From: Tubulanus polymorphus
Lineage: Eukaryota; Nemertea; Palaeonemertea; Tubulaniformes; Tubulanidae
Length of the DNA stretch: 64,000 bases
Direction of reading: 5' to 3'
Assembly (NCBI RefSeq): GCF_964204645.1
Contig: NC_134032.1
Span: 12,456,275 to 12,520,274 of the forward strand
In this document: one piece after another, positions 24,245 to 55,189 of the stretch
Position numbering within the stretch: position 1 is the stretch's first letter
Layout of the letters: every line of letters starts with the position of its first letter
Position numbers and translations under genes: made by a program
The notes under the pieces: generated by a model
The model's database searches: none
What the model saw: only the letters and a program-made list of their open reading frames with translations
What the model was told of the DNA's origin: nothing

Positions 24245-24325
24245 AGAAGCAATTCGACTCCCAGGTAAATGGAGTCTTCTGCATCTCACAAGTATGAAAT
24301 CATAAGAAATCAATAAACAACGAAC

Positions 24326-28505: not shown

Positions 28506-31500
28506 ACTTTAAAACAAAAAGCATGGCCAAAGCCAAACATGCGATAATGCAAGTATTACGATTAAGATGCGGGCAGAGGGAGGAGGGGCTCGGGGGCTAT
28601 GGGTTTAGAGTGTGTAAGTTTTGAATTAATAGCTTAAGGCTTTAGAGGGTTTAAGAGAATATAGCTTAAGGCTTTAGGAACTTAAGGTTTAGGGTTTAGA
28701 GGGTGTTGGTTTAGAGGGTATTGGTTTAGGGTCTAAAGGATTTAATCTAGAGGGTTTCGGTTTAGAATCTGTCGGTTAAACATTTAGTGGATAAGGGGTT
28801 AGAGGGTTTTTACTTTGAAAGGATTTAAGTTAATAGGTTTAGGGTATCAAGTCTGGTTTAGGATTAATAGGGTCTAAAGGGTAAAGTTTTAGAGACTATA
28901 GGTTTAAGGTGTTAAGTAAGTAGGTTTAGGTTTAAAGGATACGTATGGTTGGGGCTTAAGAGACCATAGGTTTACAGTCTCAGCCATTGAGAAAGGATCT
29001 TGAACACAAATCTGTCTCACGACGACTTGTGTTTCCAGTTTTCTCATCAGTAAACGTCTGCGCTTATCTTGTCAGCTTTCATCTCCTCGAGACTTCTTGC
29101 CAGTTTTCATCTTCAGTCTTGCCATTAGGTAACATCTCCTTTGGATCTTATCAGTGTTCTTCACCACATCTCTTTGCATTTAACCAAACTTCCTGAACTT
29201 AAAAACAAAAAGCATGGCCAAAGCCAAACATGCGATAATGCAAGTATTACGATTAAGATGCGGGCAGAGGGAGGAGGGGCTCGGGGGCTATGGGTTTAGA
29301 GTGTGTAAGTTTTGAATTAATAGCTTAAGGCTTTAGAGGGTTTAAGAGAATATAGCTTAAAGCTTTAGGAACTTAAGGTTTAGGGTTTAGAGGGTGTTGG
29401 TTTAGAGGGTATTGGTTTAGGGTCTCAAGGATTTAATCTAGAGGGTTTCGGTTTAGAATCTGTCGGTTAAACATTTAGTGGATAAGGGGTTAGAGGGTTT
29501 TAAGTTAATAGGTTTAGGGTATCAAGTCTGGTTTAGGATTAAGAGGGTCTAAAGGGTAAAGTTTTAGAGACTATAAGTTTAAGGTATTAAGTAAGTAGGT
29601 TTAGGTTTTCAAGGATACGTATGGTTGGGGCTTAAGAGACTATAGGTTTACAGTCTCAGCCATTGAGAAAGGATCTTGAAAACAAATCTGTCTCACGACG
29701 ACTAGTGTTTCCAGTCTTCTCATCAGTAAACATCTTCGCTTATCTTGTCAGCTTTCATCTCCTCGAGACTTCTTGCCAGTTTTCATCTTCAGTCTTGCCA
29801 TTAGGTAACATCTCCTTTGGATCTTATCAGTTTTCTTCACCACATCTCTTTGCATTTAACCAAACTTCCTGAACTTAAAAACAAAAAGCATGGCCAAAGC
29901 CAAACATGCGATAATGCAAGTATTACGGTTAAGATGCGGGCAGAGGGAGGAGGGGCTCGGGGGCCATGGGTTTAGAGTGTGTAAGTTTTGAATTAATAGC
30001 TTAAGGCTTTAGAGGATTTAAGAGAATATAGCTTAAGGCTTTAGGAACTTAAGGTTTAGGGTTTAGAGGGTGTTGGTTTAGAGGGTATTGGTTTAGGGTC
30101 TAAAGGATTTAATCTAGAGGGTTTCGGTTTAGAATCTGTCGGTTAAACATTTAGTGGATAAGGGGTTAGAGGGTTTTTGCTTGGAAGGGATTTAAGTTAA
30201 TAGGTTTAGGGTATCAAGTCTGGTTTAGGATTAAGAGGGTCTAAAGGGTAAAGTTTTAGAGACTATAGGCTTAAGGTATTAAGTTAGTAGGTTTAGGTTT
30301 AAAGGATACGTATGGTTGGGGCTTAAGAGACTATAGGTTTACAGTCTCAGCCATTGAGAAAGGATCTTGAAAACAAATCTGTCTGACGACGACTTGTGTT
30401 TCCAGTCTTCTAATCAGTAATCGTCTGCGCTTATCTTGTCAGCTTTCATCTCCTCGAGACTTCTTGCCAGTTTTCATCTTCAGTCTTGCCATTAGGTAAC
30501 ATCTCCTTTGGATCTCATCAGTTTTCTTCACCACATCTCTTTGCATTTAACCAAACTTCCTGAACTTAAAAACAAAAAGCATGGCCAAAGCCAAACATGC
30601 GATAATGCAAGTATTACGATTAAGATGCGGGCAGAGGGAGGAGGGGCTCGGGGGCTATGGGTTTAGAGTGTGTAAGTTTTGAATTAATAGCTTAAGGCTT
30701 TAGAGAGTTTAAGAGAATATAGCTTAAGGCTTTAGGAACTTAAGGTTTAGGGTTTAGAGGGTGTTGGTTTAGAGGGTATTGGTTTAGGGTCTCAAGGATT
30801 TAATCTAGAGGGTTTCGGTTTAGAATCTGTCGGTTAAACATTTAGTGGATAAGGGGTTAGAGGGTTTTGCTTGGAAGGGATTTAAGTTAATAGGTTTAGG
30901 GTATCAAGTCTGGTTTAGGGTTCAGAGGGTCTAAAGGGTAAAGTTTTAGAGACTATAGGTTTAAGGTATTAAGTAAGTAGGTTTAGGTTTTAAAGGATAC
31001 GTATGGTTGGGGCTTAAGAGACTATAGGTTTACAGTCTCAGCCATTGAGAAAGGATCTTGAAAACAAATCTGTCTCACAACGACAAGTGTTTCCAGTCTT
31101 CTCATCAGTAAACATCTTCGCTTATCTTGTCAGCTTTCATCTCCTCGAGACTTCTTGCCAGTTTTCATCTTCAGTCTTGCCATTAGGTAACATCTCCTTT
31201 GGATCTTATCAGTTTTCTTCACCACATCTCTTTGCATTTAACCAAACTTCCTGAACTTAAAAACAAAAAGCATGGCCAAAGCCAAACATGCGATAATGCA
31301 AGTATTACGGTTAAGATGCGGGCAGAGGGAGGAGGGGCTCGGGGGCTATGGGTTTAGAGTGTGTAAGTTTTGAATTAATAGCTTAAGGCTTAAGTGGGTT
31401 TAAGAGAATATAGCTTAAGGCTTTAGGAACTTAAGGTTTAGGGTTTAGAGGGTGTTGGTTTAGAGGGTATTGGTTTAGGGTCTCAAGGATTTAATCTAGA

Positions 31501-34500
31501 GGGTTTGGGTTTAGAATCTGTCGGTTAAACATTTAGTGGATAAGGGGTTAGAGGGTTTTTGCTTGGAAGGGATTTAAGTTAATAGGTTTAGGATATCAAG
31601 TCTGGTTTAGGATTAAGAGGGTCTAAAGGGTAAAGTTTTAGAGACTATAGGCTTAAGGTATTAAGTTAGTAGGTTTAGGTTTAAAGGATATGTATGGTTG
31701 GGGCTTAAGAGACTATAGGTTTACAGTCTCAGCCATTGAGAAAGGATCTTGAAAACAAATCTGTCTGACGACGACTTGTGTTTCCAGTCTTCTCATCAGT
31801 AATCGTCTGCGCTTATCTTGTCAGCTTTCATCTCCTCGAGACTTCTTGCCAGTTTTCATCTTCAGTCTTGCCATTAGGTAACATCTCCTTTGGATCTCAT
31901 CAGTTTTCTTCACCACATCTCTTTGCATTTAACCAAACTTCCTGAACTTAAAAACAAAAAGCATGGCCAAAGCCAAACATGCGATAATGCAAGTATTACG
32001 ATTAAGATGCGGGCAGAGGGAGGAGGGGCTCGGGGGCTATGGGTTTAGAGTGTGTAAGTTTTGAATTAATAGCTTAAGGCTTTAGAGGGTTTAAGACAAT
32101 ATAGCTTAAGGCTTTAGGAACTTAAGGTTTAGGGTTTAGAGGGTGTTGGTTTAGAGGGTATTGGTTTAGGGTCTCAAGGATTTAATCTAGAGGGTTTGGG
32201 TTTAGAATCTGTCGGTTAAACATTTAGTGGATAAGGGGTTAGAGGGTTTTGCTTGGAAGGGATTTAAGTTAATAGGTTTAGGGTATCAAGTCTGGTTTAG
32301 GGTTCAGAGGGTCTAAAGGGTAAAGTTTTAGAGACTATAGGTTTAAGGTATTAAGTAAGTAGGTTTAGGTTTTAAAGGATACTTATGGTTGGGGCTTAAG
32401 AGACTATAGGTTTACAGTCTCAGCCATTGAGAAAGGATCTTGAAAACAAATCTGTCTCACAACGACAAGTGTTTCCAGTCTTCTCATCAGTAAACATCTT
32501 CGCTTATCTTGTCAGCTTTCATCTCCTCGAGACTTCTTGCCAGTTTTCATCTTCAGTCTTGCCATTAGGTAACATCTCCTTTGGATCTTATCAGTTTTCT
32601 TCACCACATCTCTTTGCATTTAACCAAACTTCCTGAACTTAAAAACAAAAAGCATGGCCAAAGCCAAACATGCGATAATGCAAGTATTACGGTTAAGATG
32701 CGGGCAGAGGGAGGAGGGGCTCGGGGGCTATGGGTTTAGAGTGTGTAAGTTTTGAATTAATAGCTTAAGGCTTAAGTGGGTTTAAGAGAATATAGCTTAA
32801 GGCTTTAGGAACTTAAGGTTTAGGGTTTAGAGGGTGTTGGTTTAGAGGGTATTGGTTTAGGGTCTCAAGGATTTAATCTAGAGGGTTTGGGTTTAGAATC
32901 TGTCGGTTAAACATTTAGTGGATAAGGGGTTAGAGGGTTTTTGCTTGGAAGGGATTTAAGTTAATAGGTTTAGGGTATCAAGTCTGGTTTAGGATTAAGA
33001 GGGTCTAAAGGGTAAAGTTTTAGAGACTATAGGCTTAAGGTATTAAGTTAGTAGGTTTAGGTTTAAAGGATATGTATGGTTGGGGCTTAAGAGACTATAG
33101 GTTTACAGTCTCAGCCATTGAGAAAGGATCTTGAAAACAAATCTGTCTCACGACGACTAGTGTTTCCAGTCTTCTCATCAGTAAACATCTTCGCTTATCT
33201 TGTCAGCTTTCATCTCCTCGAGACTTCTTGCCAGTTTTCATCTTCAGTCTTGCCATTAGGTAACATCTCCTTTGGATCTCATCAGTTTTCTTCACCACAT
33301 CTCTTTGCATTTAACCAAACTTCCTGAACTTAAAAACAAAAAGCATGGCCAAAGCCAAACATGCGATAATGCAAGTATTACGATTAAGATGCGGGCAGAG
33401 GGAGGAGGGGCTCGGGGGCTATGGGTTTAGAGTGTGTAAGTTTTGAATTAATAGCTTAAGGCTTTAGAGGGTTTAAGAGAATATAGCTTAAGGCTTTAGG
33501 AACTTAAGGTTTAGGGTTTAGAGGGTGTTGGTTTAGAGGGTATTGGTTTAGGGTCTCAAGGATTTAATCTAGAGGGTTTCGGTTTAGAATCTGTCGGTTA
33601 AACATTTAGTGGATAAGGGGTTAGAGGGTTTTGCTTGGAAGGGATTTAAGTTAATAGGTTTAGGGTATCAAGTCTGGTTTAGGGTTCAGAGGGTCTAAAG
33701 GGTAATTTTAGAGACTATAGGTTTAAGGTATTAAGTAAGTAGGTTTAGGTTTTAAAGGATACGTATGGTTGGGGCTTAAGAGACTATAGGTTTACAGTCT
33801 CAGCCATTGAGAAAGGATCTTGAAAACAAATCTGTCTCACAACGACAAGTGTTTCCAGTCTTCTCATCAGTAAACATCTTCGCTTATCTTGTCAGCTTTC
33901 ATCTCCTCGAGACTTCTTGCCAGTTTTCATCTTCAGTCTTGCCATTAGGTAACATCTCCTTTGGATCTTATCAGTTTTCTTCACCACATCTCTTTGCATT
34001 TAACCAAACTTCCTGAACTTAAAAACAAAAAGCATGGCCAAAGCCAAACATGCGATAATGCAAGTATTACGGTTAAGATGCGGGCAGAGGGAGGAGGGGC
34101 TCGGGGGCTATGGGTTTAGAGTGTGTAAGTTTTGAATTAATAGCTTAAGGCTTTAGTGGGTTTAAGAGAATATAGCTTAAGGCTTTAGGAACTTAAGGTT
34201 TAGGGTTTAGAGGGTGTTGGTTTAGAGGGTATTGGTTTAGGGTCTCAAGGATTTAATCTAGAGGGTTTCGGTTTAGAATCTGTCGGTTAAACATCTAGTG
34301 GATAAGGGGTTAGAGGGTTTTTACTTTGAAGGGATTTAAGTTAATAGGTTTAGGGTATCAAGTCTGGTTTAGGATTAATAGGGTCTAAAGGGAAAAGTTT
34401 TAGAGACTCTAGATTTAAGGTATTAAGTAAGTAGGTTTAGGTTTAAAGGATACGTATGGTTGAGGCTTAAGAGACCATAGGTTTACAGTCTCAGCCATTG

Positions 34501-37500
34501 AGAAAGGATCTTGAACACAAATCTGTCTCACGACGACTTGTGTTTCCAGTCTTCTCATCAGTAAACGTCTGCGCTTATCTTGTCAGCTTTCATCTCCTCG
34601 AGACTTCTTGCCAGTTTTCATCTTCAGTCTTGCCATTAGGTAACATCTCCTTTGGATCTTATCAGTGTTCTTCACCACATCTCTTTGCATTTAACCAAAC
34701 TTCCTGAACTTAAAAACAAAAAGCATGGCCAAAGCCAAACATGCGATAATGCAAGTATTACGATTAAGATGCGGGCAGAGGGAGGAGGGGCTCGGGGACT
34801 ATGGGTTTAGAGTGTGTAAGTTTTGAATTAATAGCTTAAGGCTTTAGAGGGTTTAAGAGAATATAGCTTAAGGCTTTAGGAACTTAAGGTTTAGGGTTTA
34901 GAGGGTGTTGGTTTAGAGGGTATTGGTTTAGGGTCTCAAGGATTTAATCTAGAGGGTTTCGGTTTAGAATCTGTCGGTTAAACATTTAGTGGATAAGGGG
35001 TTAGAGGGTTTTAAGTTAATAGGTTTAGGGTATCAAGTCTGGTTTAGGATTAAGAGGGTCTAAAGGGTAAAGTTTTAGAGACTATAAGTTTAAGGTATTA
35101 AGTAAGTAGGTTTAGGTTTTCAAGGATACGTATGGTTGGGGCTTAAGAGACTATAGGTTTACAGTCTCAGCCATTGAGAAAGGATCTTGAAAACAAATCT
35201 GTCTCACGACGACTAGTGTTTCCAGTCTTCTCATCAGTAAACATCTTCGCTTATCTTGTCAGCTTTCATCTCCTCGAGACTTCTTGCCAGTTTTCATCTT
35301 CAGTCTTGCCATTAGGTAACATCTCCTTTGGATCTTATCAGTTTTCTTCACCACATCTCTTTGCATTTAACCAAACTTCCTGAACTTAAAAACAAAAAGC
35401 ATGGCCAAAGCCAAACATGCGATAATGCAAGTATTACGGTTAAGATGCGGGCAGAGGGAGGAGGGGCTCGGGAGCTATGGGTTTAGAGTGTGTAAGTTTT
35501 GAATTAATAGCTTAAGGCTTTAGTGGGTTTAAGAGAATATAGCTTAAGGCTTTAGGAACTTAAGGTTTAGGGTTTAGAGGGTGTTGGTTTAGAGGGTATT
35601 GGTTTAGGGTCTAAAGGATTTAATCTAGAGGGTTTCGGTTTAGAATCTGTCGGTTAAACATTTAGTGGATAAGGGGTTAGAGGGTTTTTGCTTGGAAGGG
35701 ATTTAAGTTAATAGGTTTAGGATATCAAGTCTGGTTTAGGATTAAGAGGGTCTAAAGGGTAAAGTTTTAGAGACTATAGGTTTAGGGTATTAAGTAAGTA
35801 GGTTTAGGTTTGAAGGATACGTATGGTTGGGGCTTAAGAGACTATAGGTTTACAGTCTCAGCCATTGAGAAAGGATCTTGAAAACAAATCTGTCTCACAA
35901 CGACAAGTGTTTCCAGTCTTCTCATCAGTAAACATCTTCGCTTATCTTGTCAGCTTTCATCTCCTCGAGACTTCTTGCCAGTTTTCATCTTCAGTCTTGC
36001 CATTAGGTAACATCTCCTTTGGATCTTATCAGTTTTCTTCACCACATCTCTTTGCATTTAACCAAACTTCCTGATCTTAAAAACAAAAAGCATGGCCAAA
36101 GCCAAACATGCGATAATGCAAGTATTACGATTAAGATGCGGGCAGAGGGAGGAGGGGCTCAGGGGCTATGGGTTTAGAGTGTGTAAGTTTTGAATTAATA
36201 GCTTAAGGCTTTAGAGGGTTTAAGAGAATATAGCTTAAGGCTTTAGGAACTTAAGGTTTAGGGTTTAGAGGGTGTTGGTTTAGAGGGTATTGGTTTAGGG
36301 TCTCAAGGATTTAATCTAGAGGGTTTGGGTTTAGAATCTGTCGGTTAAACATTTAGTGGATAAGGGGTTAGAGGGTTTTTGCTTGGAAGGGATTTAAGTT
36401 AATAGGTTTAGGGTATCAAGTCTGGTTTAGGATTAAAAGGGTCTAAAGGGTAAAGTTTTAGAGACTATTAGTTTAAGGTATTAAGTAAGTAGGTTTAGGT
36501 TTAAAGGATACGTATGGTTGGGGCTTAAGAGACTATAGGTTTACAGTCTCAGCCATTGAGAAAGGATCTTGAAAACAAATCTGTCTCACGACGACTAGTG
36601 TTTCCAGTCTTCTCATCAGTAAACATCTTCGCTTATCTTGTCAGCTTTCATCTCCTCGAGACTTCTTGCCAGTTTTCATCTTCAGTCTTGCCATTAGGTA
36701 ACATCTCCTTTGGATCTTATCAGTTTTCTTCACCACATCTCTTTGCATTTAACCAAACTTCCTGAACTTAAAAACAAAAAGCATGGCCAAAGCCAAACAT
36801 GCGATAATGCAAGTATTACGGTTAAGATGCGGGCAGAGGGAGGAGGGGCTCGGGGGCTATGGGTTTAGAGTGTGTAAGTTTTGAATTAATAGCTTAAGGC
36901 TTTAGAGGGTTTAAGAGAATATAGCTTAAGGCTTTAGGAACTTAAGGTTTAGGGTTTAGAGGGTGTTGGTTTAGAGGGTATTGGTTTAGGGTCTAAAGGA
37001 TTTAATCTAGAGGGTTTCGGTTTAGAATCTGTCGGTTAAACATTTAGTGGATAAGGGGTTAGAGGGTTTAAGTTAATAGGTTTAGGGTATCAAGTCTGGT
37101 TTAGGATTAAGAGGGTCTAAAGGGTAAAGTTTTAGAGACTAGAAGTTTAAGGTATTAAGTAAGTAGGTTTAGGTTTTAAAGGATACGTATGGTTGGGGCT
37201 TAAGAGACTATAGGTTTACAGTCTCAGCCATTGAGAAAGGATCTTGAAAACAAATCTGTCTCACGACGACTAGTGTTTCCAGTCTTCTCATCAGTAAACA
37301 TCTTCGCCTATCTTGTCAGCTTTCATCTCCTCGAGACTTCTTGCCAGTTTTCATCTTCAGTCTTGCCATTAGGTAACATCTCCTTTGGATCTTATCAGTT
37401 TTCTTCACCACATCTCTTTGCATTTAACCAAACTTCCTGAACTTAAAAACAAAAAGCATGGCCAAAGCCAAACATGCGATAATGCAAGTATTACGGTTAA

Positions 37501-40500
37501 GATGCGGGCAGAGGGAGGAGGGGCTCGGGGGCCATGGGTTTAGAGTGTGTAAGTTTTGAATTAATAGCTTAAGGCTTTAGAGGGTTTAAGAGAATATAGC
37601 TTAAGGCTTTAGGAACTTAAGGTTTAGGGTTTAGAGGGTGTTGGTTTAGAGGGTATTGGTTTAGGGTCTAAAGGATTTAATCTAGAGGGTTTCGGTTTAG
37701 AATCTGTCGGTTAAACATTTAGTGGATAAGGGGTTAGAGGGTTTTTGCTTGGAAGGGATTTAAGTTAATAGGTTTAGGGTATCAAGTCTGGTTTAGGATT
37801 AAGAGGGTCTAAAGGGTAAAGTTTTAGAGACTATAGGTTTAAGGTATCAAGTAAGTAGGTTTAGGTTTTAAAGGATACGTATGGTTGGGGCTTAAGAGAC
37901 TATAATAGGTTTACAATCTCAGCCATTGAGAAAGGATCTTGAACACAAATCTGTCTCACGACGACTTGTGTTTCCAGTCTTCTCATCAGTAAACGTCTGC
38001 GCTTATCTTGTCAGCTTTCATCTCCTCGAGACTTCTTGCCAGTTTTCATCTTCAGTCTTGCCATTAGGTAACATCTGCTTTGGATCTTATCAGTGTTCTT
38101 CACCACATCTCTTTGCATTTAACCAAACTTCCTGAACTTAAAAACAAAAAGCATGGCCAAAGCCAAACATGCGATAATGCAAGTATTACGGTTAAGATGC
38201 GGGCAAAGGGAGGAGGGGCTCGGGGGCTATGGGTTTAGAGTGTGTAAGTTTTGAATTAATAGCTTAAGGCTTTAGAGGGTTTAAGAGAATATAGCTTAAG
38301 GCTTTAGGAACTTAAGGTTTAGGGTTTAGAGGGTGTTGGTTTAGAGGGTATTGGTTTAGGGTCTCAAGGATTTAATCTAGAGGGTTTCGGTTTAGAATCT
38401 GTCGGTTAAAAATTTAGTGCATAAGGGGTTAGAGGGTTTTAAGTTAATAGGTTTAGGGTATCAAGTCTGGTTTAGGATTAAGAGGGTCTAAAGGGTAAAG
38501 TTTTAGAGACTATAAGTTTAAGGTATTAAGTAAGTAGGTTTAGGTTTTAAAGGATACATATGGTTGAGGCTTAAGAGACTATAGGTTTACAGTCTCAGCC
38601 ATTGAGAAAGGATCTTGAAAACAAATCTGTCTCACGATGACTAGTGTTTCCAGTCTTCTCATCAGTAAACATCTTCGCTTATCTTGTCAGCTTTCATCTC
38701 CTCGAGACTTCTTGCCAGTTTTCATCTTCAGTCTTGCCATTAGGTAACATCTCCTTTGGATCTTATCAGTTTTCTTCACCACATCTCTTTGCATTTAACC
38801 AAACTTCCTGAACTTAAAAACAAAAAGCATGGCCAAAGCCAAACATGCGATAATGCAAGTATTACGGTTAAGATGCGGGCAGAGGGAGGAGGGGCTCGGG
38901 GGCTATGGGTTTAGAGTGTGTAAGTTTTGAATTAATAGCTTAAGGCTTTAGAGGGTTTAAGAGAATATAGCTTAAGGCTTTAGGAACTTAAGGTTTAGGG
39001 TTTAGAGGGTGTTGGTTTAGAGGGTATTGGTTTAGGGTCTAAAGGATTTAATCTAGAGGGTTTCGGTTTAGAATCTGTCGGTTAAACATTTAGTGGATAA
39101 GGGGTTAGAGGGTTTAAGTTAATAGGTTTAGGGTATCAAGTCTGGTTTAGGATTAAGAGGGTCTAAAGGGTCAAGTTTTAGAGACTAGAAGTTTAAGGTA
39201 TTAAGTAAGTAGGTTTAGGTTTTAAAGGATACGTATGGTTGGGGCTTAAGAGACTATAGGTTTACAGTCTCAGCCATTGAGAAAGGATCTTGAAAACAAA
39301 TCTGTCTCACGACGACTAGTGTTTCCAGTCTTCTCATCAGTAAACATCTTCGCTTATCTTGTCAGCTTTCATCTCCTCGAGACTTCTTGCCAGTTTTCAT
39401 CTTCAGTCTTGCCATTAGGTAACATCTCCTTTGGATCTTATCAGTTTTCTTCACCACATCTCTTTGCATTTAACCAAACTTCCTGAACTTAAAAACAAAA
39501 AGCATGGCCAAAGCCAAACATGCGATAATGCAAGTATTACGGTTAAGATGCGAACAGAGGGAGGAGGGGCTCGGGGGCTATGGGTTTAGAGTGTGTAAGT
39601 TTTGAATTAATAGCTTAAGGCTTTAGAGGGTTTAAGAGAATATAGCTTAAGGCTTTAGGAACTTAAGGTTTAGGGTTTAGAGGGTGTTGGTTTAGAGGGT
39701 ATTGGTTTAGGGTCTCAAGGATTTAATCTAGAGGGTTTCGGTTTAGAATCTGTCGGTTAAACATTTAGTGGATAAGGGGTTAGAGGGTTTTGCTTGGAAG
39801 GGATTTAAGTTAATAGGTTTAGGGTATCAAGTCTGGTTTAGGGTTCAGAGGGTCTAAAGGGTAAAGTTTTAGAGACTATAGGTTTAAGGTATTAAGTAAG
39901 TAGGTTTAGGTTTTAAAGGATACGTATGGTTGGGGCTTAAGAGACTATAGGTTTACAGTCTCAGCCATTGAGAAAGGATCTTGAAAACAAATCTGTCTCA
40001 CGACGACTAGTGTTTCCAGTCTTCTCATCAGTAAACATCTTCGCTTATCTTGTCAGCTTTCATCTCCTCGAGACTTCTTGCCAGTTTTCATCTTCAGTCT
40101 TGCCATTAGGTAACATCTCCTTTGGATCTTATCAGTTTTCTTCACCACATCTCTTTGCATTTAACCAAACTTCCTGAACTTAAAAACAAAAAGCATGGCC
40201 AAAGCCAAACATGCGATAATGCAAGTATTACGGTTAAGATGCGGGCAGAGGGAGGAGGGGCTCGGGGGCTATGGCTTTAGAGTGTGTAAGTTTTGAATTA
40301 ATAGCTTAAGGCTTTAGTGGGTTTAAGAGAATATAGCTTAAGGCTTTAGGAACTTAAGGTTTAGGGTTTAGAGGGTGTTGGTTTAGAGGGTGTTGGTTTA
40401 GAGGGTATTGGTTTAGGGTCTCAAGGATTTAATCTAGAGGGTTTCGGTTTAGAATCTGTCGGTTAAACATTTAGTGGATAAGGGGTTAGAGGGTTTTTAC

Positions 40501-43500
40501 TTTGAAGGATTTAAGTTAATAGGTTTAGGGTATCAAGTCTGGTTTAGGATTAATAGGGTCTAAAGGGTAAAGTTTTAGAGACTATAGGTTTAAGGTATTA
40601 AGTAAGTAGGTTTAGGTTTAAAGGATACGTATGGTTGGGGCTTAAGAGACCATAGGTTTACAGTCTCAGCCATTGAGAAAGGATCTTGAACACAAATCTG
40701 TCTCACGACGACTTGTGTTTCCAGTCTTCTCATCAGTAAACGTCTGCGCTTATCTTGTCAGCTTTCATCTCCTCGAGACTTCTTGCCAGTTTTCATCTTC
40801 AGTCTTGCCATTAGGTAACATCTCCTTTGGATCTTATCAGTGTTCTTCACCACATCTCTTTGCATTTAACCAAACTTCCTGAACTTAAAAACAAAAAGCA
40901 TGGCCAAAGCCAAACATGCGATAATGCAAGTATTACGATTAAGATGCGGGCAGAGGGAGGAGGGGCTCGGGGGCTATGGGTTTAGAGTGTGTAAGTTTTG
41001 AATTAATAGCTTAAGGCTTTAGAGGGTTTAAGAGAATATAGCTTAAGGCTTTAGGAACTTAAGGTTTAGGGTTTAGAGGGTGTTGGTTTAGAGGGTATTG
41101 GTTTAGGGTCTCAAGGATTTAATCTAGAGGGTTTCGGTTTAGAATCTGTCGGTTAAACATTTAGTGAATAAGGGGTTAGAGGGTTTTAAGTTAATAGGTT
41201 TAGGGTATCAAGTCTGGTTTAGGATTAAGAGGGTCTAAAGGGTAAAGTTTTAGAGACTATAAGTTTAAGGTATTAAGTAAGTAGGTTTAGGTTTTCAAGG
41301 ATACGTATGGTTGGGGCTTAAGAGACTATAGGTTTACAGTCTCAGCCATTGAGAAAGGATCTTGAAAACAAATCTGTCTCACGACGACTAGTGTTTCCAG
41401 TCTTCTCATCAGTAAACATCTTCGCTTATCTTGTCAGCTTTCATCTCCTCGAGACTTCTTGCCAGTTTTCATCTTCAGTCTTGCCATTAGGTAACATCTC
41501 CTTTGGATCTTATCAGTTTTCTTCACCACATCTCTTTGCATTTAACCAAACTTCCTGAACTTAAAAACAAAAAGCATGGCCAAAGCCAAACATGCGATAA
41601 TGCAAGTATTACGGTTAAGATGCGGGCAGAGGGAGGAGGGGCTCGGGGGCCATGGGTTTAGAGTGTGTAAGTTTTGAATTAATAGCTTAAGGCTTTAGAG
41701 GATTTAAGAGAATATAGCTTAAGGCTTTAGGAACTTAAGGTTTAGGGTTTAGAGGGTGTTGGTTTAGAGGGTATTGGTTTAGGGTCTAAAGGATTTAATC
41801 TAGAGGGTTTCGGTTTAGAATCTGTCGGTTAAACATTTAGTGGATAAGGGGTTAGAGGGTTTTTGCTTAGAAGGGATTTAAGTTAATAGGTTTAGGGTAT
41901 CAAGTCTGGTTTAGGATTAAGAGGGTCTAAAGGGTAAAGTTTTAGAGACTATAGGCTTAAGGTATTAAGTTAGTAGGTTTAGGTTTAAAGGATACGTATG
42001 GTTGGGGCTAAAGAGACTATAGGTTTACAGTCTCAGCCATTGAGAAAGGATCTTGAAAACAAATCTGTCTCACAACGACAAGTGTTTCCAGTCTTCTCAT
42101 CAGTAATCGTCTGCGCTTATCTTGTCAGCTTTCATCTCCTCGAGACTTCTTGCCAGTTTTCATCTTCAGTCTTGCCATTAGGTAACATCTCCTTTGGATC
42201 TCATCAGTTTTCTTCACCACATCTCTTTGCATTTAACCAAACTTCCTGAACTTAAAAACAAAAAGCATGGCCAAAGCCAAACATGCGATAATGCAAGTAT
42301 TACGATTAAGATGCGGGCAGAGGGAGGAGGGGCTCGGGGGCTATGGGTTTAGAGTGTGTAAGTTTTGAATTAATAGCTTAAGGCTTTAGAGGGTTTAAGA
42401 GAATATAGCTTAAGGCTTTAGGAACTTAAGGTTTAGGGTTTAGAGGGTGTTGGTTTAGAGGGTATTGGTTTAGGGTCTAAAGGATTTAATCTAGAGGGTT
42501 TCGGTTTAGAATCTGTCGGTTAAACATTTAGTGGATAAGGGGTTAGAGGGTTTAAGTTAATAGGTTTAGGGTATCAAGTCTGGTTTAGGATTAAGAGGGT
42601 CTAAAGGGTAAAGTTTTAGAGACTAGAAGTTTAAGGTATTAAGTAAGTAGGTTTAGGTTTTAAAGGATACGTATGGTTGGGGCTTAAGAGACTATAGGTT
42701 TACAGTCTCAGCCATTGAGAAAGGATCTTGAAAACAAATCTGTCTCACGACGACTAGTGTTTCCAGTCTTCTCATCAGTAAACATCTTCGCTTATCTTGT
42801 CAGCTTTCATCTCCTCGAGACTTCTTGCCAGTTTTCATCTTCAGTCTTGCCATTAGGTAACATCTCCTTTGGATCTTATCAGTTTTCTTCACCACATCTC
42901 TTTGCATTTAACCAAACTTCCTGAACTTAAAAACAAAAAGCATGGCCAAAGCCAAACATGCGATAATGCAAGTATTACGGTTAAGATGCGGGCAGAGGGA
43001 GGAGGGGCTCGGGGGCCATGGGTTTAGAGTGTGTAAGTTTTGAATTAATAGCTTAAGGCTTTAGAGGGTTTAAGAGAATATAGCTTAAGGCTTTAGGAAC
43101 TTAAGGTTTAGGGTTTAGAGGGTGTTGGTTTAGAGGGTATTGGTTTAGGGTCTAAAGGATTTAATCTAGAGGGTTTCGGTTTAGAATCTGTCGGTTAAAC
43201 ATTTAGTGGATAAGGGGTTAGAGGGTTTTTGCTTGGAAGGGATTTAAGTTAATAGGTTTAGGGTATCAAGTCTGGTTTAGGATTAAGAGGGTCTAAAGGG
43301 TAAAGTTTTAGAGACTATAGGTTTAAGGTATCAAGTAAGTAGGTTTAGGTTTTAAAGGATACGTATGGTTGGGGCTTAAGAGACTATAATAGGTTTACAA
43401 TCTCAGCCATTGAGAAAGGATCTTGAACACAAATCTGTCTCACGACGACTTGTGTTTCCAGTCTTCTCATCAGTAAACGTCTGCGCTTATCTTGTCAGCT

Positions 43501-46500
43501 TTCATCTCCTCGAGACTTCTTGCCAGTTTTCATCTTCAGTCTTGCCATTAGGTAACATCTGCTTTGGATCTTATCAGTGTTCTTCACCACATCTCTTTGC
43601 ATTTAACCAAACTTCCTGAACTTAAAAACAAAAAGCATGGCCAAAGCCAAACATGCGATAATGCAAGTATTACGATTAAGATGCGGGCAGAGGGAGGAGG
43701 GGCTCGGGGGCTATGGGTTTAGAGTGTGTAAGTTTTGAATTAATAGCTTAAGGCTTTAGAGGGTTTAAGAGAATATAGCTTAAGGCTTTAGGAACTTAAG
43801 GTTTAGGGTTTAGAGGGTGTTGGTTTAGAGGGTATTGGTTTAGGGTCTCAAAGATTTAATCTAGAGGGTTTCGGTTTAGAATCTGTCGGTTAAACATTTA
43901 GTGGATAAGGGGTTAGAGGGTTTTAAGTTAATAGGTTTAGGGTATCAAGTCTGGTTTAGGATTAAGAGGGTCTAAAGGGTAAAGTTTTAGAGACTATAAG
44001 TTTAAGGTATTAAGTAAGTAGGTTTAGGTTTTAAAGGATACGTATGGTTGAGGCTTAAGAGACTATAGGTTTACAGTCTCAGCCATTGAGAAAGGATCTT
44101 GAAAACAAATCTGTCTCACGATGACTAGTGTTTCCAGTCTTCTCATCAGTAAACATCTTCGCTTATCTTGTCAGCTTTCATCTCCTCGAGACTTCTTGCC
44201 AGTTTTCATCTTCAGTCTTGCCATTAGGTAACATCTCCTTTGGATCTTATCAGTTTTCTTCACCACATCTCTTTGCATTTAACCAAACTTCCTGAACTTA
44301 AAAACAAAAAGCATGGCCAAAGCCAAACATGCGATAATGCAAGTATTACGGTTAAGATGCGGGCAGAGGGAGGAGGGGCTCGGGGGCTATGGGTTTAGAG
44401 TGTGTAAGTTTTGAATTAATAGCTTAAGGCTTTAGAGGGTTTAAGAGAATATAGCTTAAGGCTTTAGGAACTTAAGGTTTAGGGTTTAGAGGGTGTTGGT
44501 TTAGAGGGTATTGGTTTAGGGTCTAAAGGATTTAATCTAGAGGGTTTCGGTTTAGAATCTGTCGGTTAAACATTTAGTGGATAAGGGGTTAGAGGGTTTT
44601 TGCTTGGAAGGGATTTAAGTTAATAGGTTTAGGGTATCAAGTCTGGTTTAGGATTAAGAGGGTCTAAAGGGTAAAGTTTTAGAGACTATAGGCTTAAGGT
44701 ATTAAGTAAGTAGGTTTAGGTTTTTAAGGATACGTATGGTTGGGGCTTAAGAGACTATAGGTTTACAGTCTCAGCCATTGAGAAAGGATCTTGAAAACAA
44801 ATCTGTCTCACGACGACTAGTGTTTCCAGTCTTCTCATCAGTAAACATCTTCGCTTATCTTGTCAGCTTTCATCTCCTCGAGACTTCTTGCCAGTTTTCA
44901 TCTTCAGTCTTGCCATTAGGTAACATCTCCTTTGGATCTTATCAGTTTTCTTCACCACATCTCTTTGCATTTAACCAAACTTCCTGAACTTAAAAACAAA
45001 AAGCATGGCCAAAGCCAAACATGCGATAATGCAAGTATTACGGTTAAGATGCGGGCAGAGGGAGGAGGGGCTCGGGGGCTATGGGTTTAGAGTGTGTAAG
45101 TTTTGAATTAATAGCTTAAGGCTTTAGAGGGTTTAAGAGAATATAGCTTAAGGCTTTAGGAACTTAAGGTTTAGGGTTTAGAGGGTGTTGGTTTAGAGGG
45201 TATTGGTTTAGGGTCTAAAGGATTTAATCTAGAGGGTTTCGGTTTAGAATCTGTCGGTTAAACATTTAGTGGATAAGGGGTTAGAGGGTTTTTGCTTGGA
45301 AGGGATTTAAGTTAATAGGTTTAGGGTATCAAGTCTGGTTTAGGATTAAAAGGGTCTAAAGGGTAAAGTTTTAGAGACTATAAGTTTAAGGTATTAAGTA
45401 AGTAGGTTTAGGTTTTAAAGGATACGTATGGTTGGGGCTTAAGAGACTATAGGTTTACAGTCTCAGCCATTGAGAAAGGATCTTGAAAACAAATCTGTCT
45501 CACGACGACTAGTGTTTCCAGTCTTCTCATCAGTAAACATCTTCGCTTATCTTGTCAGCTTTCATCTCCTCGAGACTTCTTGCCAGTTTTCATCTTCAGT
45601 CTTGCCATTAGGTAACATCTCCTTTGGATCTTATCAGTTTTCTTCACCACATCTCTTTGCATTTAACCAAACTTCCTGAACTTAAAAACAAAAAGCATGG
45701 CCAAAGCCAAACATGCGATAATGCAAGTATTACGGTTAAGATGCGGGCAGAGGGAGGAGGGGCTCGGGGGCTATGGGTTTAGAGTGTGTAAGTTTTGAAT
45801 TAATAGCTTAAGGCTTTAGAGGGTTTAAGAGAATATAGCTTAAGGCTTTAGGAACTTAAGGTTTAGGGTTTAGAGGGTGTTGGTTTAGAGGGTATTGGTT
45901 TAGGGTCTAAAGGATTTAATCTAGAGGGTTTCGGTTTAGAATCTGTCGGTTAAACATTTAGTGGATAAGGGGTTAGAGGGTTTTAAGTTAATAGGTTTAG
46001 GGTATCAAGTCTGGTTTAGGATTAAGAGGGTCTAAAGGGTAAAGTTTTAGAGACTATAGGCTTAAGGTATTAAGTTAGTAGGTTTAGGTTTAAAGGATAT
46101 GTATGGTTGGGGCTTAAGAGACTATAAGTTTACAGTCTCGGCCATTGAGAAAGGATCTTGAAAACAAATCTGTCTGACGACGACTTGTGTTTCCAGTCTT
46201 CTCATCAGTAATCGTCTGCGCTTATCTTGTCAGCTTTCATCTCCTCGAGACTTCTTGCCAGTTTTCATCTTCAGTCTTGCCATTAGGTAACATCTCCTTT
46301 GGATCTCATCAGTTTTCTTCACCACATCTCTTTGCATTTAACCAAACTTCCTGAACTTAAAAACAAAAAGCATGGCCAAAGCCAAACATGCGATAATGCA
46401 AGTATTACGATTAAGATGCGGGCAGAGGGAGGAGGGGCTCGGGGGCTATGGGTTTAGAGTGTGTAAGTTTTGAATTAATAGCTTAAGGCTTTAGAGGGTT

Positions 46501-49500
46501 TAAGAGAATATAGCTTAAGGCTTTAGGAACTTAAGGTTTAGGGTTTAGAGGGTGTTGGTTTAGAGGGTATTGGTTTAGGGTCTCAAGGATTTAATCTAGA
46601 GGGTTTGGGTTTAGAATCTGTCGGTTAAACATTTAGTGGATAAGGGGTTAGAGGGTTTTGCTTGGAAGGGATTTAAGTTAATAGGTTTAGGGTATCAAGT
46701 CTGGTTTAGGGTTCAGAGGGTCTAAAGGGTAAAGTTTTAGAGACTATAGGTTTAAGGTATTAAGTAAGTAGGTTTAGGTTTTAAAGGATACGTATGGTTG
46801 GGGCTTAAGAGACTATAGGTTTACAGTCTCAGCCATTGAGAAAGGATCTTGAAAACAAATCTGTCTCACAACGACAAGTGTTTCCAGTCTTCTCATCAGT
46901 AAACATCTTCGCTTATCTTGTCAGCTTTCATCTCCTCGAGACTTCTTGCCAGTTTTCATCTTCAGTCTTGCCATTAGGTAACATCTCCTTTGGATCTTAT
47001 CAGTTTTCTTCACCACATCTCTTTGCATTTAACCAAACTTCCTGAACTTAAAAACAAAAAGCATGGCCAAAGCCAAACATGCGATAATGCAAGTATTACG
47101 GTTAAGATGCGGGCAGAGGGAGGAGGGGCTCGGGGGCTATGGGTTTAGAGTGTGTAAGTTTTGAATTAATAGCTTAAGGCTTTAGTGGGTTTAAGAGAAT
47201 ATAGCTTAAGGCTTTAGGAACTTAAGGTTTAGGGTTTAGAGGGTGTTGGTTTAGAGGGTATTGGTTTAGGGTCTCAAGGATTTAATCTAGAGGGTTTCGG
47301 TTTAGAATCTGTCGGTTAAACATTTAGTGGATAAGGGGTTAGAGGGTTTTTACTTTGAAGGGATTTAAGTTAATAGGTTTAGGGTATCAAGTCTGGTTTA
47401 GGATTAAGAGGGTCTAAAGGGTAAAGTTTTAGAGACTATAGGCTTAAGGTATTAAGTTAGTAGGTTTAGGTTTAAAGGATACGTATGGTTGGGGCTTAAG
47501 AGACTATAGGTTTACAGTCTCAGCCATTGAGAAAGGATCTTGAAAACAAATCTGTCTCACAACGACAAGTGTTTCCAGTCTTCTCATCAGTAATCGTCTG
47601 CGCTTATCTTGTCAGCTTTCATCTCCTCGAGACTTCTTGCCAGTTTTCATCTTCAGTCTTGCCATTAGGTAACATCTCCTTTGGATCTTATCAGTGTTCT
47701 TCACCACATCTCTTTGCATTTAACCAAACTTCCTGAACTTAAAAACAAAAAGCATGGCCAAAGCCAAACATGCGATAATGCAAGTATTACGATTAAGATG
47801 CGGGCAGAGGGAGGAGGGGCTCGGGGGCTATGGGTTTAGAGTGTGTAAGTTTTGAATTAATAGCTTAAGGCTTTAGAGGGTTTAAGAGAATATAGCTTAA
47901 GGCTTTAGGAACTTAAGGTTTAGGGTTTAGAGGGTGTTGGTTTAGAGGGTATTGGTTTAGGGTCTAAAGGATTTAATCTAGAGGGTTTCGGTTTAGAATC
48001 TGTCGGTTAAACATTTAGTGGATAAGGGGTTAGAGGGTTTAAGTTAATAGGTTTAGGGTATCAAGTCTGGTTTAGGATTAAGAGGGTCTAAAGGGTAAAG
48101 TTTTAGAGACTAGAAGTTTAAGGTATTAAGTAAGTAGGTTTAGGTTTTAAAGGATACGTATGGTTGGGGCTTAAGAGACTATAGGTTTACAGTCTCAGCC
48201 ATTGAGAAAGGATCTTGAAAACAAATCTGTCTCACGACGACTAGTGTTTCCAGTCTTCTCATCAGTAAACATCTTCGCTTATCTTGTCAGCTTTCATCTC
48301 CTCGAGACTTCTTGCCAGTTTTCATCTTCAGTCTTGCCATTAGGTAACATCTCCTTTGGATCTAATCAGTTTTCTTCACCACATCTCTTTGCATTTAACC
48401 AAACTTCCTGAACTTAAAAACAAAAAGCATGGCCAAAGCCAAACATGCGATAATGCAAGTATTACGGTTAAGATGCGGGCAGAGGGAGGAGGGGCTCGGG
48501 GGCCATGGGTTTAGAGTGTGTAAGTTTTGAATTAATAGCTTAAGGCTTTAGAGGGTTTAAGAGAATATAGCTTAAGGCTTTAGGAACTTAAGGTTTAGGG
48601 TTTAGAGGGTGTTGGTTTAGAGGGTATTGGTTTAGGGTCTAAAGGATTTAATCTAGAGGGTTTCGGTTTAGAATCTGTCGGTTAAACATTTAGTGGATAA
48701 GGGGTTAGAGGGTTTTTGCTTGGAAGGGATTTAAGTTAATAGGTTTAGGGTATCAAGTCTGGTTTAGGATTAAGAGGGTCTAAAGGGTAAAGTTTTAGAG
48801 ACTATAGGTTTAAGGTATCAAGTAAGTAGGTTTAGGTTTTAAAGGATACGTATGGTTGGGGCTTAAGAGACTATAATAGGTTTACAATCTCAGCCATTGA
48901 GAAAGGATCTTGAACACAAATCTGTCTCACGACGACTTGTGTTTCCAGTCTTCTCATCAGTAAACGTCTGCGCTTATCTTGTCAGCTTTCATCTCCTCGA
49001 GACTTCTTGCCAGTTTTCATCTTCAGTCTTGCCATTAGGTAACATCTGCTTTGGATCTTATCAGTGTTCTTCACCACATCTCTTTGCATTTAACCAAACT
49101 TCCTGAACTTAAAAACAAAAAGCATGGCCAAAGCCAAACATGCGATAATGCAAGTATTACGATTAAGATGCGGGCAGAGGGAGGAGGGGCTCGGGGGCTA
49201 TGGGTTTAGAGTGTGTAAGTTTTGAATTAATAGCTTAAGGCTTTAGAGGGTTTAAGAGAATATAGCTTAAGGCTTTAGGAACTTAAGGTTTAGGGTTTAG
49301 AGGGTGTTGGTTTAGAGGGTATTGGTTTAGGGTCTCAAGGATTTAATCTAGAGGGTTTCGGTTTAGAATCTGTCGGTTAAACATTTAGTGAATAAGGGGT
49401 TAGAGGGTTTTAAGTTAATAGGTTTAGGGTATCAAGTCTGGTTTAGGATTAAGAGGGTCTAAAGGGTAAAGTTTTAGAGACTATAAGTTTAAGGTATTAA

Positions 49501-52500
49501 GTAAGTAGGTTTAGGTTTTCAAGGATACGTATGGTTGGGGCTTAAGAGACTATAGGTTTACAGTCTCAGCCATTGAGAAAGGATCTTGAAAACAAATCTG
49601 TCTCACGACGACTAGTGTTTCCAGTCTTCTCATCAGTAAACATCTTCGCTTATCTTGTCAGCTTTCATCTCCTCGAGACTTCTTGCCAGTTTTCATCTTC
49701 AGTCTTGCCATTAGGTAACATCTCCTTTGGATCTTATCAGTTTTCTTCACCACATCTCTTTGCATTTAACCAAACTTCCTGAACTTAAAAACAAAAAGCA
49801 TGGCCAAAGCCAAACATGCGATAATGCAAGTATTACGGTTAAGATGCGGGCAGAGGGAGGAGGGGCTCGGGGGCCATGGGTTTAGAGTGTGTAAGTTTTG
49901 AATTAATAGCTTAAGGCTTTAGAGGATTTGAGAATATAGCTTAAGGCTTTAGGAACTTAAGGTTTAGGGTTTAGAGGGTGTTGGTTTAGAGGGTATTGGT
50001 TTAGGGTCTAAAGGATTTAATCTAGAGGGTTTCGGTTTAGAATCTGTCGGTTAAACATTTAGTGGATAAGGGGTTAGAGGGTTTTTGCTTAGAAGGGATT
50101 TAAGTTAATAGGTTTAGGGTATCAAGTCTGGTTTAGGATTAAGAGGGTCTAAAGGGTAAAGTTTTAGAGACTATAGGCTTAAGGTATTAAGTTAGTAGGT
50201 TTAGGTTTAAAGGATACGTATGGTTGGGGCTTAAGAGACTATAGGTTTACAGTCTCAGCCATTGAGAAAGGATCTTGAAAACAAATCTGTCTCACAACGA
50301 CAAGTGTTTCCAGTCTTCTCATCAGTAATCGTCTGCGCTTATCTTGTCAGCTTTCATCTCCTCGAGACTTCTTGCCAGTTTTCATCTTCAGACTTGCCAT
50401 TAGGTAACATCTACTTTGGATCTCATCAGTTTTCTTCACCACATCTCTTTGCATTTAACCAAACTTCCTGAACTTAAAAACAAAAAGCATGGCCAAAGCC
50501 AAACATGCGATAATGCAAGTATTACGGTTAAGATGCGGGCAGAGGGAGGAGGGGCTCGGGGGCTATGGGTTTAGAGTGTGTAAGTTTTGAATTAATAGCT
50601 TAAGGCTTTAGTGGGTTTAAGAGAATATAGCTTAAGGCTTTAGGAACTTAAGGTTTAGGGTTTAGAGGGTGTTGGTTTAGAGGGTATTGGTTTAGGGTCT
50701 CAAGGATTTAATCTAGAGGGTTTCGGTTTAGAATCTGTCGGTTTAACATTTAGTGGATAAGGGGTTAGAGGGTTTTTACTTTGAAGGGATTTAAGTTAAT
50801 AGGTTTAGGGTATCAAGTCTGGTTTAGGATTAATAGGGTCTAAAGGGTAAAGTTTTAGAGACTATAGGTTTAAGGTATTAAGTAAGTAGGTTTAGGTTTA
50901 AAGGATACGTATGGTTGGGGCTTAAGAGACCATAGGTTTACAGTCTCAGCCATAGAGAAAGGATCTTGAACACAAATCTGTCTCACGACGACTTGTGTTT
51001 CCAGTCTTCTCATCAGTAAACGTCTGCGCTTATCTTGTCAGCTTTCATCTCCTCGAGACTTCTTGCCAGTTTTCATCTTCAGTCTTGCCATTAGGTAACA
51101 TCTCCTTTGGATCTTATCAGTGTTCTTCACCACATCTCTTTGCATTTAACCAAACTTCCTGAACTTAAAAACAAAAAGCATGGCCAAAGCCAAACATGCG
51201 ATAATGCAAGTATTACGATTAAGATGCGGGCAGAGGGAGGAGGGGCTCGGGGGCTATGGGTTTAGAGTGTGTAAGTTTTGAATTAATAGCTTAAGGCTTT
51301 AGAGGGTTTAAGAGAATATAGCTTAAGGCTTTAGGAACTTAAGGTTTAGGGTTTAGAGGGTGTTGGTTTAGAGGGTATTGGTTTAGGGTCTCAAGGATTT
51401 AATCTAGAGGGTTTCGGTTTAGAATCTGTCGGTTAAACATTTAGTGAATAAGAGGTTAGAGGGTTTTAAGTTAATAGGTTTAGGGTATCAAGTCTGGTTT
51501 AGGATTAAGAGGGTCTAAAGGGTAAAGTTTTAGAGACTATAAGTTTAAGGTATTAAGTAAGTAGGTTTAGGTTTTCAAGGATACGTATGGTTGGGGCTTA
51601 AGAGACTATAGGTTTACAGTCTCAGCCATTGAGAAAGGATCTTGAAAACAAATCTGTCTCACGACGACTAGTGTTTCCAGTCTTCTCATCAGTAAACATC
51701 TTCGCTTATCTTGTCAGCTTTCATCTCCTCGAGACTTCTTGCCAGTTTTCATCTTCAGTCTTGCCATTAGGTAACATCTCCTTTGGATCTTATCAGTTTT
51801 CTTCACCACATCTATTTGCATTTAACCAAACTTCCTGAACTTAAAAACAAAAAGCATGGCCAAAGCCAAACATGCGATAATGCAAGTATTACGGTTAAGA
51901 TGCGGGCAGAGGGAGGAGGGGCTCGGGGGCCATGGGTTTAGAGTGTGTAAGTTTTGAATTAATAGCTTAAGGCTTTAGAGGATTTGAGAATATAGCTTAA
52001 GGCTTTAGGAACTTAAGGTTTAGGGTTTAGAGGGTGTTGGTTTAGAGGGTATTGGTTTAGGGTCTAAAGGATTTAATCTAGAGGGTTTCGGTTTAGAATC
52101 TGTCGGTTAAACATTTAGTGGATAAGGGGTTAGAGGGTTTTTGCTTAGAAGGGATTTAAGTTAATAGGTTTAGGGTATCAAGTCTGGTTTAGGATTAAGA
52201 GGGTCTAAAGGGTAAAGTTTTAGAGACTATAGGCTTAAGGTATTAAGTTAGTAGGTTTAGGTTTAAAGGATACGTATGGTTGGGGCTTAAGAGACTATAG
52301 GTTTACAGTCTCAGCCATTGAGAAAGGATCTTGAAAACAAATCTGTCTCACAACGACAAGTGTTTCCAGTCTTCTCATCAGTAATCGTCTGCGCTTATCT
52401 TGTCAGCTTTCATCTCCTCGAGACTTCTTGCCAGTTTTCATCTTCAGACTTGCCATTAGGTAACATCTACTTTGGATCTCATCAGTTTTCTTCACCACAT

Positions 52501-53219
52501 CTCTTTGCATTTAACCAAACTTCCTGAACTTAAAAACAAAAAGCATGGCCAAAGCCAAACATGCGATAATGCAAGTATTACGGTTAAGATGCGGGCAGAG
52601 GGAGGAGGGGCTCGGGGGCTATGGGTTTAGAGTGTGTAAGTTTTGAATTAATAGCTTAAGGCTTTAGTGGGTTTAAGAGAATATAGCTTAAGGCTTTAGG
52701 AACTTAAGGTTTAGGGTTTAGAGGGTGTTGGTTTAGAGGGTATTGGTTTAGGGTCTCAAGGATTTAATCTAGAGGGTTTCGGTTTAGAATCTGTCGGTTT
52801 AACATTTAGTGGATAAGGGGTTAGAGGGTTTTTACTTTGAAGGGATTTAAGTTAATAGGTTTAGGGTATCAAGTCTGGTTTAGGGTTCAGAGGGTCTAAA
52901 GGGTAAAGTTTTAGAGACTATAGGTTTAAGGTATTAAGTAAGTAGGTTTAGGTTTTAAAGGATACGTATGGTTGGGGCTTAAGAGACTATAGGTTTACAG
53001 TCTCAGCCATTGAGAAAGGATCTTGAAAACAAATCTGTCTCACAACGACAAGTGTTTCCAGTCTTCTCATCAGTAAACATCTTCGCTTATCTTGTCAGCT
53101 TTCATCTCCTCGAGACTTGCCAGTTTTCATCTTCAGTCTTGCCATTAGGTAACATCTCCTTTGGATCTTATCAGTTTTCTTCACCACATCTCTTTGCATT
53201 TAACCAAACTTCCTGAACT
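28506..53219. repeat. Core satellite array: 36 units of ~690 bp with higher-order structure
   Basis: Thirty-six near-identical head-to-tail units. Using the word CATTGAGAAAGG as marker (CATAGAGAAAGG in one), unit starts fall at 28987, 29663, 30354, 31045 and so on to 53010, with lengths of 675-705 bp. Each unit has a G-module (GCATGGCCAAAGCC, a G-run cluster, then degenerate GTTTAG/TTTAGGG words) and a short pyrimidine-rich M-module (TCATCAGTAAACATCTT, TCATCTCCTCGAGACTTC) related to the 78-bp minisatellite. A 69-codon open frame in most units starts with TTG, and stops or loses its start in six of the 36, so I do not call it a gene. Variant types are ordered non-randomly (see findings). No centromere or telomere function can be inferred from sequence alone. 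Confidence 0.95.
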
Positions 53220-54530: not shown

Positions 54531-55165
54531 ATATCTTCGGTCCCAATCAGTAAACATCTTTTACAGTCTTCTGATCGATAAACATCATCTTCGATCTTCT
54601 CATCAGTTTTATCTTCGGTCCACATCAGTAAACATCTTTTTCGGTCTTCTGATCGATAAACATCATCTTCGGTCTTCTCATCAGTTTTATCTTCCATCTG
54701 TATCAGTATACATCTTTTTCGGTCTTCTGATCGATAAACATCATCTTCGGTCTTCTCATCAGTCTTATCTTCGGTCCCCATCAGTAAACATCTTTTTCGG
54801 TCTTCTGATCGATAAACATCATCTTCGGTCTTCTCATCGATAAACATCATCTTCGGTCTTCTCATCTGTTTTATCTTCAGTCCCCATTAGTAAACATGTT
54901 TTTCGGTCTTCTGATCGATAAACATCATCTTCGGTCTTTTCATCTGTTTTATCTTCCATCTGTATCAGTATACACCTTTTCGGTCTTCTGATCGATAAAC
55001 ATCGTCTTCGGTCTTCTCATCAGTTTTATCTTCGGTCCCCATCAGTAAACATCTTTTTCGGTCTTCACATCGATAAACATCGTCTTCGGCTTTCTCATCA
55101 GTTTTATCTTAGTCCCCATCAATGCGCATCATTTTCGGTCTCTTCATCAGTTTTCCCTATCACAT
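54531..55165. repeat. Right-edge 78-bp minisatellite block
   Basis: About eight 78-bp units, each made of three ~26-bp subunits: CATCATCTTCGGTCTTCTC, ATCTTCGGTCCCCATCAG and CATCTTTTTCGGTCTTCTG followed by ATCGATAAA. Since 78 is divisible by three, both strands keep long open frames; the minus-strand one (114 codons) repeats TEDDVYRSEDRKRC. It ends abruptly at about 55165, where the SINE-like sequence begins. Confidence 0.8.
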
Positions 55166-55189
55166 CCCTCGGATCCAACACCCGTCGAT

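Follow-up and report, generated by a model that had tools for sequence, protein, structure and literature searches.

A tandem array of about 25 kb, lying on a chromosome arm beside genes, was described in an earlier note as a satellite with an eight-unit higher-order repeat of about 5.49 kb, in the layout known from centromeric alpha satellite. The locus raises the question of whether a block of eight units has indeed shaped the whole array, and of where such an array comes from and what, if anything, it does.

The array, its unit and its edges

The window (the whole 64,000-nucleotide stretch analysed, C8:12456275-12520274) belongs to an assembly of 267.8 Mb in 77 contigs. Anchor positions confirm a real satellite array of 36 units in one orientation, bordered on both sides by degenerate units and minisatellites:

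28521-53220, forward strand: core array of 36 head-to-tail units, 675-705 bp long and about 98% alike (limits from anchor positions)
27645-28090, forward strand: degenerate left edge unit, 79% identical to a core unit
53221-53669, forward strand: degenerate right edge unit, 80% identical to a core unit; a further one lies in pieces at 54172-54518
27206-28467, forward strand: 28/78-bp minisatellites, at 27206-27565 and 28218-28467, and on the other side of the array at 53788-54117 and 54528-55148

When each gap run is counted as one change, two units differ by 14.2 changes on average, or 2.06% (all 630 pairs). In a tree, the 36 core units form a single clade (support 100/100), outside which fall both the units of a second locus on contig C6, described below, and the edge units, the two edge units grouping together. 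A homogeneous core thus stands between degenerate edges, the nearest edge units being 79-80% identical to it, as in satellites; such a core-and-edge pattern is typical of complex satellites.

The unit of about 690 bp is composite. One part is G-rich and full of GGTTTAG, and the other is related to the adjoining 28/78-bp minisatellites: pieces of the minisatellite regions on either side are matched by unit positions of about 512-642, and these matches extend to the stretch before the minisatellites. The GC skew stays between about +0.27 and +0.31 through 28521-53220. A derivation of the unit from telomeres was considered and rejected, as the G-rich part matches the dispersed GGTTTAGGG minisatellites, three of which were read or scanned, at 65-79% (85% in one 45-bp piece), a likeness that composition alone may explain.

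One eight-unit step within a patchwork

The starting point of the earlier description was a 695-bp unit recurring at even distances, and this holds. The unit starts at 37456, 42940 and 48427 (37231, 42715 and 48202 in the earlier note, plus 225, the phase chosen here being different), at distances of 5484 and 5487 bp, that is, eight units. All three copies are identical, and each has a 675-bp unit on its left and a 676-bp unit on its right. The marker GACTATAATAGGTTTACAATC, previously taken for an insertion, does distinguish the variant, but it is not a pure insertion: it consists of a 3-bp insertion plus a substitution, and three other units compared possess the same stretch without either. 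Each marker string of the variant occurs three times in the window, and the first also three times in the genome (exact matches). The unit types and their order along the array define the following features:

37456-38150, forward strand: 695-bp variant, copy 1 (unit 14), identical to copies 2 and 3
42940-43634, forward strand: 695-bp variant, copy 2 (unit 22), identical to copies 1 and 3
48427-49121, forward strand: 695-bp variant, copy 3 (unit 30), identical to copies 1 and 2
36781-38826, forward strand: triad of 675-, 695- and 676-bp units (units 13-15), recurring at 42265-44310 (units 21-23) and 47752-49797 (units 29-31)
36781-49797, forward strand: region with the eight-unit step (units 13-31), in which a block of about 5.49 kb is present about 2.4 times, only the triad remaining of the third copy
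49759-50828, forward strand: longest perfect repeat, 1070 bp, with its second copy at 51815-52884, a lag of three units
29888-34031, forward strand: alternating pair of unit types (units 3-8), a two-unit pattern present three times, recognized from haplotypes and clustering

Lag 8 is a peak of similarity. Units eight apart differ by 11.54 changes on average, compared with 14.21 when the unit order is randomized (5000 shuffles; single-lag p = 0.0002), and the family-wise p over 27 lags (2-28; 4000 shuffles) is 0.0285. The observation also withstands the check that the earlier note had itself proposed, namely a unit tree in which neighbours are always closest and no excess appears at lag 8: with ties included, the nearest relative lies at distance eight for 11 of the 36 units and next door for two. 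Neighbouring units are even less alike than random ones (16.31 changes, z = +3.1).

Nevertheless, this similarity is confined to one region. Eleven consecutive lag-8 pairs (units 13-23 versus 21-31) average 5.7 differences, and no run of 11 units as good was seen at any lag tried in 2000 shuffles (shuffle p for runs of five and eight units: 0.0145 and 0.0225, respectively), whereas the remaining 17 of the 28 lag-8 pairs average 15.3, above the overall mean of 14.2. Pairs separated by six changes or fewer make up 8/28 at lag 8 versus 60/630 overall. Between block 1 (units 14-21) and block 2 (units 22-29), corresponding units differ by 0, 6, 6, 8, 17, 9, 9 and 1 changes, a mean of 7.0 per unit or about 1.0%; between block 2 and block 3 (units 30-36), the values are 0, 5, 15, 15, 19, 19 and 12 (mean 12.1), and block 3 differs from block 1 by 14.4 on average, its likeness being confined to positions 1 and 2. 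Since the run is limited to units 13-31 and decays in block 3, it is well supported that the middle of the array underwent duplication of a single eight-unit block, the third copy retaining only the triad around the 695-bp variant.

The array also shows copying at many other distances. Perfect repeats of at least 500 bp occur at 11 lags (1, 2, 3, 8, 12, 13, 16, 17, 19, 23 and 29). Lag 8 holds most of this sequence (3680 bp), followed by lag 3 (1603 bp) and lag 12 (1447 bp); the longest perfect repeat, however, is the 1070-bp one at lag 3, versus 974 and 882 bp for the best two at lag 8. In addition, all four combinations of variants are found in 187 of 703 site pairs, recombinant haplotypes that mark exchange between or inside units. 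The earlier proposal of block amplification combined with exchange within the array is borne out by these block copies and site pairs.

Could the block of about 5.49 kb still be the true amplification unit of the entire array, later blurred by the conversion of single units? Such a history would account for the lag-8 excess with its 11-pair run, for the closeness of blocks 1 and 2, for the three identical 695-bp units and for the wealth of perfect-repeat sequence at lag 8. It is harder to reconcile with a third block that matches at two positions only, with the 17 lag-8 pairs that are less alike than average, and with a whole-array comparison in which, whichever of the eight phases is chosen, the number of changes is 12.0-13.3 for corresponding units and 14.0-14.4 for the others. 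Even within the three blocks led by the variant, corresponding units differ by 1.59% (22 pairs) and units inside a block by 2.07% (77 pairs). We therefore consider this history unlikely, the more so as random unequal exchange usually produces peaks and runs as good. Contrary to what had been proposed for the full 25 kb, the array in its entirety is not an eight-unit repeat, and the order of its units is a patchwork.

The force of the lag-8 signal was gauged against simulated arrays of 36 units subjected to random block duplication, deletion and mutation (blocks of up to 4, 12 or 20 units and two mutation rates, giving six settings of 150 runs each). The simulated mean difference was 8.6-14.1, versus 14.2 observed, most runs thus being somewhat less diverse than the real array. 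Two contrasting results emerged:

— Peaks and runs like those observed are usual. Of the runs, 63-98% contained a peak with z of -3.4 or below among lags 2-28 (observed: -3.35 to -3.45), and 86-95% a lag of at least two holding the nearest relative of at least 11 units; an 11-unit run no worse than the observed one, once scaled by the mean difference, was present in 67-73%. A preferred eight-unit block is accordingly not needed, and a lag peak with evenly spaced variants is in itself no proof of a higher-order repeat, because random unequal exchange often produces one.

— Unlike neighbours are rare. Neighbours as unlike as here (excess of 2.0; observed, 2.1 differences) were seen in 0-15% of runs, and arrays with at most two nearest relatives next door in 6-83%. 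Either single-unit duplication is rare, therefore, or some blocks are preferred.

Multi-unit blocks are hence favoured over single-unit duplication. A preference for steps of eight may exist in addition, given the family-wise p of 0.0285 at lag 8, the 11 of 36 nearest relatives and the 7.0 changes between blocks 1 and 2.

A sister locus and its homologous flanks

Contig C8 measures 16.68 Mb, and the array, at about 12.48-12.51 Mb, is situated well within it. VPS11 exons are present on the left, between 6.4 and 12.7 kb of the window (two of three frames above the Pfam cut-off). A weak disintegrin-domain match, below the Pfam cut-off, lies 0.9-1.4 kb beyond the right end of the window. The genes seen are of animal type, and an open frame with a Schlafen AlbA_2 domain occupies 1506-2504 of the window. 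The assembly contains at least 12 large contigs (C1-C12), nine of them of 11.5-32.1 Mb.

A search of the assembly for other arrays, as the earlier note had suggested, yielded one more locus of the full unit, at 6.219-6.241 Mb of C6 on the minus strand (best 21 of 22 candidates scored); the search used one unit and listed matches apart from the window's own core units, so that locus counts are lower bounds. The homology of the two loci extends into both flanks:

23139-27110, forward strand: left flank, homologous to a stretch of C6 that runs downwards from 6244780, in collinear pieces of 73-88% identity, with a sharp outer edge at 23139
55151-60210, forward strand: right flank, homologous to a stretch of C6 that reaches down to 6212920, in collinear pieces of 75-90% identity

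The array thus sits within a 37-kb segment (23139-60210), for which one diverged relative was found, at C6:6212920-6244780 (L001-L005). The gene neighbourhoods of the two loci differ, an LMBR1 exon lying beside the one on C6, which likewise has an interior position on its contig. There, two copies of a right-flank module separate the array into three subarrays. A block with a period of about 9.3 kb occurs in two copies, which are 95.9% alike across 5.86 kb, and three sister pairs in the tree consist of C6 units that lie 9.1-9.4 kb from each other. Amplification on C6 involved not only the array but, along with it, about 2.5-2.9 kb of flank. Unit identity is 98.2% within C8, 90.0% within C6 and 87.9% between the loci (16 C6 units, five of them partial). 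Each array is accordingly more alike within itself than to the other, but the 16 C6 units do not fall on one side of a branch (two changes). These three values, together with the single C8 clade and the 79-80% identity of the edge units, fit a homogenization on C8 that is recent and local, and a composite unit that is old.

A collapsed or wrongly expanded assembly appears scarcely credible as the source of the array: the longest perfect repeat, of 1070 bp, is shorter than long reads, the order of the variants differs along the array, and the second locus possesses homologous flanks and an array version of its own.

Two old copies of a large mobile element, of about 32-37 kb and carrying the satellite with it, would offer another account of the paired loci. 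Collinear homology on both sides next to different genes (LMBR1 on C6; VPS11 and the weak disintegrin match on C8) is what such an element would leave, and the left edge at 23139 is sharp; the right one, however, is blurred by a further 52-bp match. Moreover, no terminal repeat is apparent (the best end-to-end match in either orientation is 22 bp, with an E of 0.24), no transposase, integrase or polymerase was matched in Pfam among the 10 frames taken from the flanks and the C6 locus, and only two full loci are present among the flank-search matches listed, counts that are lower bounds. Parts of either end also recur beside the loci, as in segmental duplications. We thus hold a mobile element to be improbable. 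Some frames in the flanks look retroelement-like by eye, but they have no Pfam match, and retroelement remains are not claimed.

Several other repeats were noticed around the segment and elsewhere in the assembly. The right segment end (59010-59851) recurs about 8 kb to the right on C8 (L013; 67330-68060 in window numbering) at 66-77% identity. A repeat of about 145 bp at 24008-24152, probably a short mobile element, has matches, mostly of 87-96%, on each of C1-C12 (40 of 3767 first-look candidates scored). Just left of the segment edge, 22900-23004 contains 104-105 bp identical to places on C4, C6 and C9, and a segment of about 330 bp at 57936-58262 has matches of about 79% at many loci, several of which are arranged in tandem with a spacing of 1.28-1.42 kb. 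Telomere repeats are TTAGGG; as neither SL1 nor the TTAGGC repeat has an exact match, a nematode origin was rejected, and a search of the assembly for COX1 gave no match. Among the TTAGGG matches listed (first 100 of 1683), short TTAGGG tracts 7-22 kb apart occur at C4:25817-64566, at the contig start, and at C7:21563989-21571725, as if something had inserted into telomeres. Finally, stretches of degenerate GGGTTAGGGTTTAG repeats, about 1-2 kb long, are dispersed in the assembly (L006 900-2990, L008 500-2720 and L009 1103-2133), with further weak matches on C2, C4, C7 and C9; those on C3 and C10 have, by eye, their internal order and ends in common, and resemble a telomere-sequence-rich repeat family.

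Function, origin and comparison with known satellites

We found no sign of function in reading frames, RNA families or a conserved core, and the array is presumably without a function of its own. A coding repeat protein was rejected, as the longest stop-free frame in the array has 86 codons and most unit lengths are not divisible by three (691, 676, 695, 689 and 692 are not; 675, 678 and 705 are). The window contains no Rfam match at the gathering threshold and no tRNA according to ARAGORN; three Rfam matches below that threshold, all in the edge regions, were put down to chance. Between C8 and C6 (11 full C6 units), the best 50-bp window reaches a conservation of 0.975, versus a 99% limit of 0.987 for shuffled columns, so that a conserved core acting as a protein-binding box was set aside. 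The C8 unit contains 11 CpG sites, the bases of which have a match of 0.64 in C6, compared with an overall 0.89, as if these sites had decayed through methylation. A centromeric role is unlikely, because the unit appears to form no more than two short arrays, which occupy two of the 12 or more large contigs.

One could still imagine the C8 and C6 loci as a functional pair, whose G-rich strand would be kept homogeneous for some action in the nucleus. The array might then be, for example, a template for repetitive RNA or a binding platform, and multi-unit exchange steps would maintain its copy number. The features that invite this idea are a four-run G-quadruplex motif, present once per unit in all 36 C8 units, the excess of G over C (skew of about 0.3) and the telomere-like GGTTTAG runs. 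As a conserved function, however, the motif was rejected, since only 6 of 16 C6 units carry it and 80 of 1000 shuffles of one unit contain it as well. We rate a functional pair as very unlikely.

The reading that we prefer, with a probability of roughly 0.78, is that of a non-coding and probably non-centromeric complex satellite, local in extent, present at two paralogous loci and evolving by unequal exchange. The composite unit of about 690 bp would have existed before a segment of some 30-37 kb came onto both C8 and C6, as the homologous flanks on both sides suggest. Later, the C8 array would have re-expanded and been homogenized through unequal exchange of blocks of variable size, one of them of eight units, with exchange inside units added to that of blocks; the expected outcome is a core that is homogeneous, edges that are degenerate and unit types arranged as a patchwork. 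The blocks were probably made by unequal crossing-over, rather than by rolling-circle or other replication-based amplification. The array is therefore mostly ordinary: its patchwork is expected from misaligned recombination, and it has no eight-part unit of the centromeric kind. Its interest lies in being a compact, fully assembled example of satellite growth, with two sister loci at different stages, in a series that would lead from minisatellite to composite unit, then to multi-unit blocks and to the 9.3-kb block.

The part of the general satellite and centromere literature available to us contains no account of this array, an absence that says little. In alpha-satellite higher-order repeats, the monomers of a block are about 70% identical, and neighbouring blocks up to 97-100% (PMC8122249). 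The array studied here resembles them in having a duplicated multi-unit block and unit types defined by shared variants. On the other hand, units within its block are about 98% alike rather than about 70%, only part of the array contains further copies of the block, and the array lies inside a contig. An excess of similarity at a single lag is present (lag 8, p = 0.0285), but it is matched in 63-98% of simulated runs, and block copies far more alike than monomers throughout the array were not found (1.59% versus 2.07%; no lag-8 likeness outside units 13-31). The likeness to centromeric alpha satellite that the earlier note had drawn for the whole array is too strong, even though the observation behind it is sound and one eight-unit step is real.

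Satellite repeats within gene-bearing chromosome arms are also known from insects. Euchromatic copies of the Drosophila 1.688 satellite are described as short arrays in which the number of repeats is mostly six or fewer, and those of Tribolium as monomers, the large blocks of the same satellites lying elsewhere (PMC10048060). The array shares their setting but differs in having 36 units at a single locus, and no large block of its unit is present among the matches listed.

The closest comparison is with complex satellite DNA, the concerted evolution of which is attributed to unequal crossover under Smith's model (PMC8122249). The tandem non-coding units, the homogeneous core with degenerate edges, the array-specific homogenization and the block duplications of several sizes are features that the present array shares with such DNA. 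It departs from it in its long composite unit (about 690 bp), its short array (25 kb) and its restriction to few places, with at least two loci, and only two among the matches listed, in an assembly of 268 Mb.
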